Shown here one piece after another: positions 15,513-32,891 of a stretch of DNA of 33,012 nt. A program made the position numbers and the translations under genes. Source of the stretch: an uncultured Clostridia bacterium (GTDB lineage: Bacteria > Bacillota > Clostridia > Oscillospirales > Acutalibacteraceae). Numbering within the stretch: the stretch's first letter is position 1; each line of letters starts with the position of its first letter. The notes below the pieces were generated by a model. The model did not search any database. It was not told the DNA's origin and was given only the letters and a program-made list of their open reading frames with translations. The DNA is taken from positions 1 through 33,012 of the forward strand of contig CAMWPJ010000010.1 of assembly GCA_947176035.1 (NCBI GenBank), written 5' to 3'.

Positions 15513-15555
15513 CATATAAACAATGTGGTATAGTTATATCAAGGAGATGAGGCGG

Positions 15556-16374
15556 TTGGATCAAATAATTCAAATACCTACCGAAAAATTATTACCAAAC
15601 CCCTATCAGCCAAGAAAGCAGTTTAAAAGTGAGGACATGCTATCTCTTTCAGAGTCGATAAAAGAAAACGGAGTCTTGCAGCCCCTCTTATGCAGACAAA
15701 TCAATAACAGTGATTATTATGAGGTCGTTGCAGGTGAAAGACGACTGCGAGCTTCAATCCTTGCTAATATGCAGACTGTTCCTTGTGTAATAATCGATTG
15801 TGACTATGAGTCAAGTGCTGTATTCTCTATATTGGAGAATATACAGAGAAGTGATCTTGACTTCTTTGAAGAAGCACAGGCAATCAGTCAGCTTATTAAT
15901 CATTTTGGTATGACGCAGGAACAAATAGGGAAAAAACTCGGAAAAAGTCAGTCCTCGCTGTCGAATAAGTTGAGACTGCTCAAATTACCTGTCGATGTAA
16001 GATACTTTATAGAGCATGAAGGGCTTACCGAAAGACATGCACGTGCATTGCTGAGACTTGACAGCGAAAAGGATATGTGGACAACCCTTAAGCTGATAAA
16101 GGAAAAACATCTGAACGTTGAGCAGACAGAAGCTTACATAGATACAATAACAGACAAAAAGATAAAACCACGCAGAAATGTAGTTAAAATCTTTAAGGAT
16201 GTAAGAATTTTTGTTAACACAGTCAATAGAGCTATCCAAACAATGAAGGATGCTGGCATTGATGCAGAATCGGACAAGACCGAAACAGAAGAATATATAG
16301 AATTTCGAGTAAGAATACCAAAGGATGCACAAAATGCTGCACAGAACACGCACAAGTGTACTAACCCTGCTTAA
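15556..16374 (+). CDS. noc: Nucleoid occlusion protein, ParB-family CTPase
   Basis: 'IPTEKLLPNPYQPRKQF', 'VVAGERRLRAS', 'LGKSQSSLSNKLRLLKL', 'LTERHARALLRL', C-terminal 'EEYIEFRVRIPKD'. TTG 15556 lies 9 nt after AAGGAG; the alternative ATG 15547 directly abuts the SD. Confidence 0.88.
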   Translation: MDQIIQIPTEKLLPNPYQPRKQFKSEDMLSLSESIKENGVLQPLLCRQINNSDYYEVVAGERRLRASILANMQTVPCVIIDCDYESSAVFSILENIQRSDLDFFEEAQAISQLINHFGMTQEQIGKKLGKSQSSLSNKLRLLKLPVDVRYFIEHEGLTERHARALLRLDSEKDMWTTLKLIKEKHLNVEQTEAYIDTITDKKIKPRRNVVKIFKDVRIFVNTVNRAIQTMKDAGIDAESDKTETEEYIEFRVRIPKDAQNAAQNTHKCTNPA

Positions 16375-16392
16375 AACGGGAAACCGTTTTAA
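16371..16392 (+). other. Perfect hairpin with GAAA tetraloop overlapping the noc stop codon
   Basis: TTAAAACGG-GAAA-CCGTTTTAA, 9-bp perfect stem. Confidence 0.7.
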
Positions 16393-16417
16393 CATATTCT
16401 CCTCTTTTCATCACGTG

Positions 16418-16445
16418 GAAAAAACGGGCGTAAGCTCGTTTTTTC
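16418..16445. terminator. Probable bidirectional terminator downstream of noc
   Basis: GAAAAAACGGGC-gtaa-GCTCGTTTTTTC, one G-T wobble. Confidence 0.75.
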
Positions 16446-16489
16446 TGCGTTTATAGGGATAAACTATATCGTAATATTATTTCTACTTG

Positions 16490-16505
16490 TGTTTCACGTG
16501 AAATA
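16490..16505. promoter_or_regulatory. parS: parS site 1
   Basis: TGTTTCACGTGAAATA, 15/16 match to TGTTTCACGTGAAACA. Confidence 0.88.
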
Positions 16506-16695
16506 TAACTACTATATATAGAATTTCATATAAACTATGTTTGTATCAGAATCGTATCGGCTGCTGACATAGTTTATTTTTATATTTGATTAGAGCAATA
16601 GATGAAAAATAATATGTTTATGATAAAAAAAGAATTACTATAGTTTATAATTAAGATTAATCCGTTACCTACGCAAAAAATGCTGTAAAACTAAA

Positions 16696-16711
16696 TGTTC
16701 CACGTGAAACA
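16696..16711. promoter_or_regulatory. parS: parS site 2
   Basis: TGTTCCACGTGAAACA, 15/16 match to parS consensus. Confidence 0.9.
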
Positions 16712-16767
16712 TCTATATATGGTATACAGTTTATTATCTGTATACAAAAGTGAAAAAATTTTCCCAA

Positions 16768-16783
16768 TGTTCCACGTGAAACA
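16768..16783. promoter_or_regulatory. parS: parS site 3
   Basis: TGTTCCACGTGAAACA, identical to site 2. Confidence 0.9.
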
Positions 16784-16867
16784 TCTTGCTCTATGCATTT
16801 ATATGTTGTATAATAATCTGGTATCAGGACCGGCATATCCCCTGCCCTGAATAATGGAGGTGCTGTT

Positions 16868-17629
16868 ATGGGTAAAACCATATCAATATTCAATCAAAAA
16901 GGCGGCGTAGGTAAAACTACAACATGCATTAATTTTGCAGCAGCCTTAGGAATTAAAGGAAAAAAGACATTGCTTATCGATATTGACCCTCAGGGTAATA
17001 CAACAAGTGGTGTTGGCATTGATAAATCTGATATTGAGGTATCATCATATGATGTGCTTATCAATGATGTGCCTGTTAAAGACGCAATACAGCAGACGAG
17101 GTTCAAAAATCTGTATGTGCTTCCTGCTAATATGAATCTTGCAGGTGCAGAGCTTGAGCTTGCAGAAAATGAAAGTCGCTTTAAGGTGCTGAAAAAAGCT
17201 TTGGCAGCAGTGGTTATGGATTATGACTATATAATCATAGATTGTCCGCCAAGCTTAGGGCTGCTCAGCCTAAATTCTTTGACAGCGTCAGATACTTTGA
17301 TTGTACCGCTGCAATGCGAATACTATGCTTTGGAAGGCTTAAGTCAGCTTATAAGCACAGTTCGTACTGTAAAACAGAATTATAATGAGCATTTAGAGCT
17401 TGAAGGTGTTGTTTTTACAATGTATGACAGCAGATTAAAGCTTAATCAGCAGGTTATGGACGAGGTTGACAAGTTCTTCCCTAACAAAACATATAAATCG
17501 CGTATTCCACGCAGTGTAAAGTTAGCGGAAGCGCCAAGCTACGGTGAGCCTGTACTATATTATGAAAAATATTCAAAGGCAAGCTTCGCATATAAGAAGT
17601 TTGCAGATGAATTCTTAAAAAAACAATAA
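16868..17629 (+). CDS. parA: Chromosome partitioning ATPase ParA/Soj
   Basis: 'ISIFNQKGGVGKTTTCINFAAAL' deviant Walker A; 'IDIDPQGNTTSGVG'; 'IIIDCPPSLGLLSLNSL'. Confidence 0.97.
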   Translation: MGKTISIFNQKGGVGKTTTCINFAAALGIKGKKTLLIDIDPQGNTTSGVGIDKSDIEVSSYDVLINDVPVKDAIQQTRFKNLYVLPANMNLAGAELELAENESRFKVLKKALAAVVMDYDYIIIDCPPSLGLLSLNSLTASDTLIVPLQCEYYALEGLSQLISTVRTVKQNYNEHLELEGVVFTMYDSRLKLNQQVMDEVDKFFPNKTYKSRIPRSVKLAEAPSYGEPVLYYEKYSKASFAYKKFADEFLKKQ

Positions 17630-17639
17630 GAGGTGAAGT

Positions 17640-18488
17640 ATGGCTAAAAAGCAATCAGGATTGGGTAAGGGTTTAAATGCTCTTATGCTTGAAAACTCTG
17701 TTGATGATATGACAGCAACAAATACCCTCTCCATCAATGAAATAACACGCAATGAAGATCAGCCGCGAAAAACCTTTGATGAAGGTGCTTTACAGGAGCT
17801 TGCGGATAGTATTACCCAGCATGGTGTACTTCAGCCACTGCTTGTAAGACCACTTCCGGAAGGTGGTTATCAGCTTGTTGCAGGTGAACGGCGCTGGAGA
17901 GCCTCCAGAATAGCAGGTCTTAAGGAAGTTCCTGTTGTTATTAGAGAGCTTTCTGATGTTGAGACTATGGAAATCGCTATTATTGAGAATTTGCAGCGCG
18001 AGGATCTCAACCCTATTGAAGAGGCAGAAGGTCTGCAGGCACTTATTGATCGTTGTGGATTTACACAAGAGGATGTTGCTGTTTCAGTTGGAAAATCAAG
18101 ACCGGCAATTGCGAATGCACTAAGACTTCTCAAATTACCGCAAGAGGTGCGCGATATGACCAGAAAGGGCGAAATTTCAGCAGGTCACGCACGAGCACTG
18201 CTTGCCTTTGATAATGAAGCAATGATTTGCGAAGCGGCACAAAATATAATCAAAAACAGTTTAACAGTAAGAGATGTTGAGCGTCTTGCTAAAATGACAG
18301 AGAAAACTGTTAAAACCCGTTCAAGCTCAAAAAGGCGTGATTCCTTTTATGATGAGGTTGAGCTGTCACTTACTGAAGTTCTCGGCAGAAGAGTAAAGGT
18401 TTATAACGGCAGAGGTAAGGGAACACTTGAGATAGAGTTCTATTCTGCTGATGATTTAAAGGAAATTGCTAATAAGTTAGGAGACTAA
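17640..18488 (+). CDS. parB: Chromosome partitioning protein ParB/Spo0J
   Basis: 'SGLGKGLNALM' ParA-interacting N-terminus; 'VAGERRWRASRIAGL'; 'VGKSRPAIANALRLLKLP'; 'ISAGHARALLAF'. Confidence 0.97.
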   Translation: MAKKQSGLGKGLNALMLENSVDDMTATNTLSINEITRNEDQPRKTFDEGALQELADSITQHGVLQPLLVRPLPEGGYQLVAGERRWRASRIAGLKEVPVVIRELSDVETMEIAIIENLQREDLNPIEEAEGLQALIDRCGFTQEDVAVSVGKSRPAIANALRLLKLPQEVRDMTRKGEISAGHARALLAFDNEAMICEAAQNIIKNSLTVRDVERLAKMTEKTVKTRSSSKRRDSFYDEVELSLTEVLGRRVKVYNGRGKGTLEIEFYSADDLKEIANKLGD

Positions 18489-30032: not shown

Positions 30033-30572
30033 ATGAACAAGGATGTTGAAAAGATTTTAGTTACCGAAGATGAGCTTGTGCAAATTTCCAAAAAGCTCGG
30101 TGAGCAGATTACAAAGGATTATAAGGGCAAAAAATTACTTATAGTAGGTGTGCTGAAAGGCTCAATCTATTTCTTAACTGACCTTTCAAGGCACATTGAT
30201 TTACCTTGCAATATTGACTTTATCCAGGCATCAAGCTATGGTGCAAATACCGTGTCAAGCGGAGAAATTAAAATTATAAAGGACATATGCGATGACCTTT
30301 CCGGTTTTGATGTGTTGCTTGTCGAGGATATACTTGATACAGGAAAAACCTTAAAGCATATTCATGATATGCTTTCAAAGCGAAATCCGGAGTCAATTGC
30401 GATTGTAACTTTGCTTGACAAGCCGGCAAGACGTGAGGCAGACATTTATGCCGATTATGTCGGAGTTGATGTGCCTAACGAATTTGTTGTTGGTTATGGT
30501 CTTGACTATGACCAGTTTTACAGAAATCTGCCTTATATAGGTGTGTTAAAACAAGAAGTTTATACCAAATAG
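30033..30572 (+). CDS. hpt: Hypoxanthine phosphoribosyltransferase
   Basis: 'LLIVGVLKGSIYFLTDLSRHI', PRPP-binding 'VLLVEDILDTGKTLKHI', 'VGYGLDYDQFYRNLPYIGVLK'. Confidence 0.95.
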   Translation: MNKDVEKILVTEDELVQISKKLGEQITKDYKGKKLLIVGVLKGSIYFLTDLSRHIDLPCNIDFIQASSYGANTVSSGEIKIIKDICDDLSGFDVLLVEDILDTGKTLKHIHDMLSKRNPESIAIVTLLDKPARREADIYADYVGVDVPNEFVVGYGLDYDQFYRNLPYIGVLKQEVYTK

Positions 30573-30600
30573 TTGACATATCTGTATTTGGTGATATACT
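30573..30600 (+). promoter_or_regulatory. Promoter driving the cobalamin riboswitch transcript
   Basis: TTGACA (30573-30578), 16 bp, TATACT (30595-30600), starting at the hpt stop codon. Confidence 0.7.
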
Positions 30601-30624
30601 AGCTACATAATAATTAAATATTCA

Positions 30625-30798
30625 GCGGTTTTCAAAGTCTGACAACAGCTTTGAAATGAAAAGGGAATCAGGTGAGAATCCTGGGCAACCGCCATTACCG
30701 TATTTGACGAAGTGAATACAAATGCCATTGGGAGACTGAGAAGGCGTATTCATATGTATACAAATTTATACTATATCATAAGTCGGGAGACCTGCCGC
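30625..30798 (+). ncRNA. Cobalamin riboswitch aptamer
   Basis: 'AAAAGGGAATCAGGTGAGAATCCTGGGCAACCGCCATTACCG', B12-box-like 'GCCATTGGGAGACTGAGAAGGC', 'AGTCGGGAGACCTGCCG', P1 GCGG/CCGC, P2 TTTCAAAG/CTTTGAAA. Confidence 0.95.
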
Positions 30799-30889
30799 GG
30801 TGAGCGAAGTTTAAAGCTCACATTAATAAATTCAGCTTTTGGGCAAGTGGGAAAGCAAAGGGATTTAAAATACCTTGTATAATTGCGTG

Positions 30890-30920
30890 CACCCCTGTCT
30901 GAAAGACGGGGGTGTTTTTT
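30890..30920 (+). terminator. Riboswitch expression-platform hairpin (terminator-like, contains SD-like sequence)
   Basis: CACCCCTGTCT (30890-30900) gaa AGACGGGGGTG (30904-30914) then TTTTTT directly before ATG 30921. Confidence 0.85.
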
Positions 30921-31655
30921 ATGAAAAAATTATCTGCAATAGTTTTATCTGCTATAATATGCGTAGCACTTTTTGGCTGCAGTGCCGATAAAGCGCAATT
31001 TAACGAAAATGAGACAGCACAGGCAACTGTTACGGCAATAAGCACAACACAAAGCGAAAGTACAATAGATGCAGTATCTGAAAATAAAACAACCGACAGG
31101 CAATCAACCTCTGCACCCAATAATCGAAATACAAGCACTTCATCTCCAAAAGAAAATAATGAAGACAATGCTTCGAATACAGATGAGAAAACTACCATCG
31201 CAAACAACAACACAACTGCAAATAATCTATCAAACAAACCTGCATCTTCCAAGCCAACCACAACAGCAAGGCAGACAACTACATCATCAACAATAACCTG
31301 TTCAGTAACGATTGAGTGCACAAGCGTGCTTGATAATATGGATGAACTGAAAGCCGGACACGAGGATTATGTTCCGTCAGATGGATACATAATAAGCAAT
31401 TATTCCGTAACTCTGCCTAATGACAGTACAGCATATGACGCAGTTAAGGCAGCATGTGAAAATCGTGGTGTTACAATGAATGTTGTGAGCAGCAGCTATG
31501 GAAAATACATCGCGGGCTTTAATAACATTGACGAAAAGGACTGTGGCAATCAAAGCGGATGGCTCTATTTTGTCAATGGTAAATCGCCGTCAAAAAGCTG
31601 TAATAAATATACACTTTCAAATGGTGACAACGTTGTATTTTCATACACGTGTTAA
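30921..31655 (+). CDS. Lipoprotein with Thr/Ser/Asn-rich linker and C-terminal DUF4430/transcobalamin-beta-like domain
   Basis: Lipobox 'SAIICVALFGCSAD'; low-complexity linker; C-terminal 'STAYDAVKAACENRGVTMNVVSSSYGKYIAGFNNIDEKDCGNQSGWLYFVNGKSPSKSCNKYTLSNGDNVVFSYTC' resembles DUF4430 proteins. Confidence 0.85.
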   Translation: MKKLSAIVLSAIICVALFGCSADKAQFNENETAQATVTAISTTQSESTIDAVSENKTTDRQSTSAPNNRNTSTSSPKENNEDNASNTDEKTTIANNNTTANNLSNKPASSKPTTTARQTTTSSTITCSVTIECTSVLDNMDELKAGHEDYVPSDGYIISNYSVTLPNDSTAYDAVKAACENRGVTMNVVSSSYGKYIAGFNNIDEKDCGNQSGWLYFVNGKSPSKSCNKYTLSNGDNVVFSYTC

Positions 31656-31678
31656 TAAATTTTTAAGGAGGATAAAAT

Positions 31679-32854
31679 ATGAAAAAGATTTTATCAGTTT
31701 TACTTGCAATGTGTGTAATGCTTATGACAAGCATCACTGCATTTGCAGCTCAGACACCAAGCACTGACAAAGTGCAAAAACAAATTGAGGGTGCTGTTGC
31801 ATACCTTACCGCCGATGCCGAGAGTTATGGCGTTGATCAGGCATTGGATTTCAGCTTTTTAGCTGATTCAGGTGCAGATGTATCAAAATTTGCTGACGGC
31901 TTTATTGCTGATGTAAAAGCAAATCTTGATGCCAACAACGGCAGAATTGTTGCAGCCTATGGCGAAAGTCTTGCAACCTACGGTTCAGTAATCACAGCTC
32001 TTATTGCCCTTGGCGAGGACACAACAGATTTTTACGGTTATAATATCGAGGAATCATTTATGGCAATGGACCCTACAGTTGTGCCGGTGACACCAAATTA
32101 TTATTATAACATTATTAATGGTGCATTTTTATGTGATAACAGTGATGAATTTATCGAGGCGATTTGCGATACATACATCAGCGAGTTCTACACAATGGGC
32201 GAGGGCGCAAATTTCTATGGCTATGGCTGTGATAACACTGCGTATTTCATTGCTGCAATTTCACTCGGTCATTTCCAGCTTGGCAAGTATTCAGATGTGC
32301 TGAATGATGCAATGACAGTTCTTAATAGCTATGCAGTTGAAGGCGGTTACTGCTATAATCCTGAATACGGTACACAACCGAACGCAGATTCAACAGCACT
32401 TGCACTCTGGGCAAACAGTTCATATTACGGTGATGATGCCGATATCAGCAATCCAGAAACCCTTACCCCGCATTTTGAAAAGCTGAATTCAATTTATGCA
32501 GATCTCTGCGGCTTTGAGGGCAAAACAACAGGTGTATTTACATATGATGATGAAGATAATATGTATGCAACAAAGGATGCACTGATTGCACTTTCATCAT
32601 ATTATTTTGATGTATGGGCACAGGAAGAAATCAATAAGCCTGATGATAAAGAAGACGAGACAAAGCCAGTTGCTCCTTCACAGCAGGTAACTGAAAATCA
32701 GACCGCATCCACAACTGAAAAGAAAACAACCGAAAAAGCAAACACGTCTAAAAAATCACCTGCAACAGGTGCGGACACAGCAATCATCTGCACTTCAGCC
32801 GCTCTTCTTGCAGCTGCAGGCGTAATAACAGTTCTCAAAAAGAAAGAGAAATAA
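31679..32854 (+). CDS. Secreted prenyltransferase/squalene-cyclase-repeat-like (alpha/alpha toroid) protein with SPATG sortase-like anchor
   Basis: Signal peptide 'MKKILSVLLAMCVMLMTSITAFAAQ'; helical repeats including 'QPNADSTALALWANSSY' and 'MYATKDALIALSSYYF'; Thr/Lys-rich stalk; 'KKSPATGADTAIICTSAALLAAAGVITVLKKKEK'. Confidence 0.8.
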   Translation: MKKILSVLLAMCVMLMTSITAFAAQTPSTDKVQKQIEGAVAYLTADAESYGVDQALDFSFLADSGADVSKFADGFIADVKANLDANNGRIVAAYGESLATYGSVITALIALGEDTTDFYGYNIEESFMAMDPTVVPVTPNYYYNIINGAFLCDNSDEFIEAICDTYISEFYTMGEGANFYGYGCDNTAYFIAAISLGHFQLGKYSDVLNDAMTVLNSYAVEGGYCYNPEYGTQPNADSTALALWANSSYYGDDADISNPETLTPHFEKLNSIYADLCGFEGKTTGVFTYDDEDNMYATKDALIALSSYYFDVWAQEEINKPDDKEDETKPVAPSQQVTENQTASTTEKKTTEKANTSKKSPATGADTAIICTSAALLAAAGVITVLKKKEK

Positions 32855-32860
32855 TAAAAA

Positions 32861-32891
32861 ACTCCCGTATTGTGTAAAACGATACGGGAGT
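32861..32891 (-). terminator. Intrinsic terminator, better formed on the minus strand
   Basis: ACTCCCGTAT...ATACGGGAGT, 10-bp perfect arms; the T-tract lies on the minus-strand side (AAAAA before the left arm on +). Confidence 0.65.

Follow-up and report, generated by a model that had tools for sequence, protein, structure and literature searches.

A cobalamin-riboswitch operon of Clostridia encoding a predicted two-protein corrinoid-capture unit

Surface capture of scarce B12 by Gram-positive gut bacteria is poorly known, and a 2020 review concluded that at least some of these bacteria probably use variations of the known B12 machinery (PMC6977713). The locus considered here lies in a 33,012-nucleotide stretch of DNA (the window) from an uncultured Clostridia bacterium of the Acutalibacteraceae, in which a cobalamin riboswitch is followed by genes for a lipoprotein and for a secreted helical protein. 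In animal intrinsic factor and transcobalamin, an alpha and a beta domain close around B12. This raises the question of whether the two bacterial proteins are separate halves of a comparable device, as had been proposed from the letters of the DNA (the sequence-only reading). The computational analysis described here confirms that observation as a whole and partly supports its interpretation.

The riboswitch and the two proteins

An hpt-like phosphoribosyltransferase gene (positions 30033–30572) is directly 5′ of the riboswitch, as it also is in the related loci L017 and L018. In one other lineage, a gene for a secreted alpha/beta-hydrolase with a dockerin-like end takes the position directly 5′ of the riboswitch (L019:2855–4540 and its equivalents in L020–L022).

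A promoter-like site, TTGACA-16-TATACT with an extended −10 (30573–30600, + strand), starts right behind the hpt stop codon and is proposed solely from its consensus match, at 11 of 12 positions. The aptamer (30609–30813, +) begins 36 bases 3′ of hpt and matches the RF00174 covariance model with 85.7 bits against a gathering cut-off of 31.5 (E 5.2e-20). It is followed by a putative expression platform (30889–30920, +), an intrinsic terminator hairpin with a 12-pair stem; the stem and T-run (30889–30915) abut the start codon of the lipoprotein gene, and the 3′ arm contains the G-run that is the only Shine-Dalgarno-like sequence of this gene. The terminator thus appears placed to stop the downstream gene. 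The leader is arranged like a transcriptional OFF switch and would respond to B12. RF00174 is also found 5′ of the pair in L017–L023 and L025, with a comparable stem and T-run downstream. The second gene has the Shine-Dalgarno sequence AAGGAGG (31665–31671, +) 7 nt before its ATG, and a terminator-like hairpin with a 13-pair stem and a weak T tail (32861–32891, +) closes the two-gene unit. The clear aptamer, the Shine-Dalgarno sequence and the 23-nt gap before the second gene are all as the sequence-only reading had described them.

The reading frame of the lipoprotein was listed as 30912–31655, starting from a GTG at 30912, but the ATG at 30921 is the preferred and likely start, which gives a gene at 30921–31655 (+) and a 244-aa product. 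A putative lipobox (...VALFGC), read as ALFGC after a hydrophobic helix, is followed by a T/N/S-rich tether of about 100 residues that leads from the lipobox cysteine to the C-terminal DUF4430 domain (31422–31649, +). This transcobalamin-type beta-grasp domain is identified by PF14478, by its structural model, by fold matches and by conservation. PF14478 matches residues 171–246 of the 247-aa frame (E 1.2e-15; 58.1 bits against a gathering score of 23.8), and the conserved pattern is Y..E.D.G..SGW.Y.VNG...GD....Y.

Single-sequence searches of the PDB with either window protein gave nothing useful, and profile searches were therefore needed. The DUF4430 profile reaches transcobalamin-2 by sequence weakly (E 0.048 and 0.035), and stronger evidence for a relation to the carriers comes from comparing folds. 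The domain model, built from seven sequences (pLDDT 78), has the predicted order E E H E E E E, with strands 63–68 and 71–77 forming a hairpin after the helix at 48–59, i.e. a beta-grasp with a beta-hairpin inserted past the helix. An extra hairpin in this position is given as the mark of the transcobalamin-like SLBB clade by Burroughs et al. (PMC1796856). Foldseek comparison of the model with the PDB returned 19 chains at E ≤1e-3 (best E 4e-6), and all are either B12 carriers (haptocorrin, transcobalamin and intrinsic factor) or the Ruminococcus gnavus structure 3u7z; among them is 5np4, in which the transcobalamin beta domain stands alone, with cyanocobalamin. The modelling therefore supports a structural equivalence of DUF4430 with the beta domain of the B12 carriers. 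Both the presence of a lipoprotein with a C-terminal DUF4430 and the relation of this family to the carrier beta domain, which had been suggested before any search was made, are borne out, as is the structural comparison then proposed, in which the carriers are the best solved matches.

The second gene (31679–32854, +) encodes a 391-aa secreted protein with a signal peptide, an alpha/alpha toroid at aa 25–322 (31751–32644, +), an S/T/K-rich stalk and a tail. The AlphaFold2 model of the toroid (pLDDT 92.2, pTM 0.91) is nearly all helical, with 12 helices of at least 4 residues, and the prediction of an alpha/alpha toroid is upheld. The sortase-like tail (32756–32851, +) consists of SPATG, a hydrophobic stretch and KKKEK. 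It is present as had been noted, and SPATG is retained in L017 and L023, but the motif is non-canonical and the curated models match weakly, below their cut-offs (Gram_pos_anchor 13 against 20 bits, NPXTG 17 against 23.5 bits).

The fold matches of the toroid in the PDB are alpha/alpha toroids generally (lyases, glycosidases, terpene cyclases and the complement TED), with transcobalamin at rank 49 (TM 0.45); structurally, the model thus resembles transcobalamin no more than it does other toroids. The prenyltransferase-like repeats pointed out earlier, QPNADSTALAL and MYATKDALIAL, are present. The second protein by itself matches no prenyltransferase family, and the relation emerges only through the family: a 40-member toroid profile shows clear homology to toroids of the squalene-hopene-cyclase type (best E 1.6e-16), and Prenyltrans or SQHop families are matched by 27–28 of the 40 members. 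Cobalamin_bind (PF01122) is matched by one of the 40 homologues, weakly (E 0.052), and not by the window toroid. By its profile the toroid belongs with the squalene-cyclase/prenyltransferase toroids. The sequence-only reading had taken the pair as intrinsic-factor/transcobalamin-like, and for the toroid a specific relation to that of transcobalamin is not supported. Specific homology to the toroid of the animal carriers was considered and dropped because the toroid profile has no sequence match to transcobalamin. From the fold and profile matches, the beta half is strictly carrier-like and the toroid half is so in fold only.

The pair in related genomes

Toroid homologues were gathered without use of DUF4430 and their neighbourhoods were then read, which gave 41 toroid loci, all outside the species of the window. 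A separate DUF4430 gene adjoins the toroid gene on the same strand in 36 of these, a share that is not an unbiased rate for the split form, since loci were selected by score or standalone shape (half of the 32 class loci came from top scores and half were mostly short standalone toroids). Fused toroid and DUF4430 chains are found at 10 loci, and DUF4430 is either adjacent or fused at 38.

B12 riboswitches were mapped in 37 of the surveyed genomes, 20 of which have exactly one riboswitch and a toroid match. In 13 of the 20, the sole riboswitch precedes the toroid on the same strand by at most 6 kb, where a simple model that ignores kinship gives about 0.04 expected by chance; in the other seven it is unlinked to the toroid, in some cases on short contigs. 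The pairing and the riboswitch linkage together substantiate the earlier claim of a split pair under one riboswitch.

Linkage to energy-coupling factor (ECF) genes played no part in choosing the loci. An EcfT gene is nonetheless in the same operon, co-directional, at 22 of the 41 loci, mostly with fused ATPases, and with an S component where the stretch extends far enough. The typical gene order is toroid, DUF4430, EcfT, EcfAA and S component. No corrinoid transporter gene is present within the window, as was stated at the outset; the transporter partner then envisaged is found in these relatives.

Natural fusions under the riboswitch occur in L072, L077 and probably L024. The last has a 729-aa protein (L024:4109–6298) that joins a divergent DUF4430-like domain, a toroid and fn3; the fusion is called only probable because its N-terminal domain has no match to PF14478 and the hhalign probability is 86 percent. 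Toroids examined at class level often carry SLH wall domains, and the DUF4430 partners in relatives start with a signal-like hydrophobic segment. A wall half and a membrane half therefore seem to recur with different anchors, in keeping with the earlier notion that one half is membrane-tethered and the other wall-directed.

Other arrangements were also seen. L079:1537–6942 has a reordered operon in which the riboswitch is followed by EcfT and EcfAA and then by the toroid and DUF4430 genes. The genomes of L089 and L090 have 12–15 B12 riboswitches and no strong one beside the toroid operon; at these loci an S component, two DUF4430 genes and the toroid gene are in a different order.

Probable B12 need and candidate importers of the host

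The host, a gut-type Gram-positive bacterium, has a genome of 2.16 Mb (96.6 percent complete) that encodes MetH, MetF and an activation-domain protein on contig C67; neither MetE nor CbiD was found in it. The presence of MetH in the absence of MetE and CbiD indicates that the host probably needs exogenous corrinoid, i.e. that it is probably a B12-auxotrophic Clostridia species.

There are two B12 riboswitches in the genome, and each precedes a DUF4430 surface protein, in the first case that of the window pair. The second (L003:3284–3422, contig C76) precedes a small ORF and a gene for a 1225-aa GLUG/aBig (Ig-like)/DUF4430 protein that ends in a C-terminal membrane anchor. A gene of site-specific serine-recombinase-like type lies about 145 bases before the start of this riboswitch (region L003:1664–7526).

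A candidate importer is encoded on contig C69, where an ECF cassette consists of EcfT, fused ATPases and an S component. Its closest resemblance is to the cassettes linked to the operon in relatives. In a tree, the C69 EcfT groups, on a starred branch, with the operon EcfTs and apart from the two other host EcfTs. The cassette has no riboswitch and lies on a different contig from the window pair, so that a role with the pair is an extrapolation. Its S component scores above the cut-off for PF07155 and below it for PF12822 and folate-family models; these searches matched general S-component families and no B12-specific one. A BtuFCD route was also considered and is judged unlikely, as the sole FecCD permease (BtuC-like) of the host adjoins a NEAT-domain (heme) protein. 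The cluster concerned (contig C7, L099:2678–8001) encodes an 863-aa NEAT-domain surface protein, a periplasmic-binding-like protein, the FecCD permease and an ATPase, and is of heme type.

A predicted clamp, its rivals and its precedents

Relatives often encode the pair beside a membrane importer, and the pair is thus probably a B12-capture device. We consider it likely that the riboswitch controls a two-gene, clamp-like unit that is predicted to bind corrinoid and to feed a dedicated ECF importer. At low cellular B12, the riboswitch would permit read-through, and the cell would make the membrane-tethered DUF4430 lipoprotein and the wall-directed toroid protein. The toroid and the beta domain would probably close around the corrinoid in the manner of the domains of the animal carriers. 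The long flexible tether of the lipoprotein might allow the beta domain to extend to the wall and to carry the ligand to the membrane importer, which is most likely an ECF cassette; the host encodes one elsewhere in its genome (C69), and many relatives have one adjoining the pair. The broader proposition, that a two-body clamp is widespread in Clostridia, with its chains anchored in different layers and a predicted hand-over of corrinoid to a dedicated ECF importer, has in our judgement an even chance of being right. It should be pointed out that several findings count against a capture unit, i.e. the low rank of transcobalamin among the toroid matches, the single Cobalamin_bind match in the family, the lack of a transporter gene adjacent to the window pair, a C69 cassette with a general S component and no riboswitch, and the seven genomes with an unlinked riboswitch.

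The main rival is that the DUF4430 lipoprotein alone would bind corrinoid; the toroid would then be a wall protein in its own right, perhaps for glycan binding or as a presenting scaffold, outside the B12 site. This is in keeping with 5np4, in which a transcobalamin beta domain was solved by itself with cyanocobalamin, and with the toroid model, whose likeness to polysaccharide lyases and glycosidases is as good as that to any B12 carrier. However, the two domains are adjacent or fused at nearly all of the toroid loci, and the fused chains under the same riboswitch in L072 and L077 argue for joint action; we regard binding by the lipoprotein alone as rather improbable.

A smaller chance still is given to a pair that binds something else (a different cofactor, for instance, or a protein from host or diet), with B12 as the expression signal only. 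Of 376 class genomes, 160 encode DUF4430, which is often part of large multidomain surface proteins and may therefore serve several ligands; the C69 S component, too, matched no B12-specific family. Yet the ECF genes and the B12 riboswitch in one operon suggest that the cargo is what the riboswitch binds, or a close analogue of it; even cobinamide or another cobamide would be a corrinoid. That the proteins are an adhesin or surface-decoration pair with a chance domain resemblance and no role in uptake seems very improbable: such proteins often carry wall-anchor tails and SLH domains, but co-directional ECF transporter genes at 22 loci and recurrent riboswitch control speak against it.

The capture unit favoured here has several precedents. 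Intrinsic factor, transcobalamin and haptocorrin likewise combine an alpha/alpha toroid with a hairpin-bearing beta-grasp, and it is their beta domains that the DUF4430 model matches best. The window, in contrast, has two polypeptides encoded 23 nt apart, with the lipid-anchored beta half first in the operon, and a toroid that sorts with squalene-cyclase toroids. As PF01122 is not detected and the domains are not on a single chain, the pair is not placed in the intrinsic factor family, but it may work like intrinsic factor.

Burroughs et al. (2007; PMC1796856) described bacterial transcobalamin-like SLBB domains, of the same clade as the window DUF4430, and their fusions with toroids, and predicted that these bind B12. 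That paper concerns fused or solo domains, and its text does not mention riboswitches; its passages on these proteins describe no separate adjacent genes or ECF linkage. The idea that bacterial toroid and DUF4430/SLBB proteins bind B12 was thus already in print for fused proteins. The split form, riboswitch control across genera and an ECF-linked operon were not found in the open-licence papers searched, an absence that is weak evidence, and the split form with its riboswitch and ECF linkage looks new.

BtuG and BtuH of Bacteroides capture B12 at the cell surface on behalf of an importer (PMC6143338; PMC8941943). They belong to a Gram-negative outer membrane, whereas the window pair would act at a Gram-positive wall with ECF-type importers, and the window proteins have no match to DUF4465 or propeller families. 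ECF-CbrT of Lactobacillus is an example of ECF-type B12 import in a Gram-positive bacterium, in which CbrT is the substrate-binding S component that works with a shared ECF module (PMC5997447); the relatives described here differ in having a dedicated EcfT and fused ATPases beside predicted extracellular capture proteins. The bacterial structure that matches the DUF4430 model, 3u7z (RUMGNA_00854 of R. gnavus), was solved as a putative metal-binding protein.

Riboswitch-controlled, carrier-like halves that are linked by operon to ECF genes in many genera offer a concrete and testable answer to how B12 might be captured at the Gram-positive surface. If true, an ECF transporter would have extracellular capture proteins, and there would be an additional bacterial competitor for B12. 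If the proteins do act as a clamp, they would be a bacterial counterpart of intrinsic factor and transcobalamin, and the animal carriers might descend from fused versions. This bears on the published proposal of a Gram-positive bacterial origin for the B12 carriers of animals (PMC1796856).

Elsewhere in the window (15523–18488), two ParB-like genes flank a ParA gene, as judged from translations only. This run also has homologues of mnmE, mnmG, rsmG and serS, which suggests an origin-proximal region.
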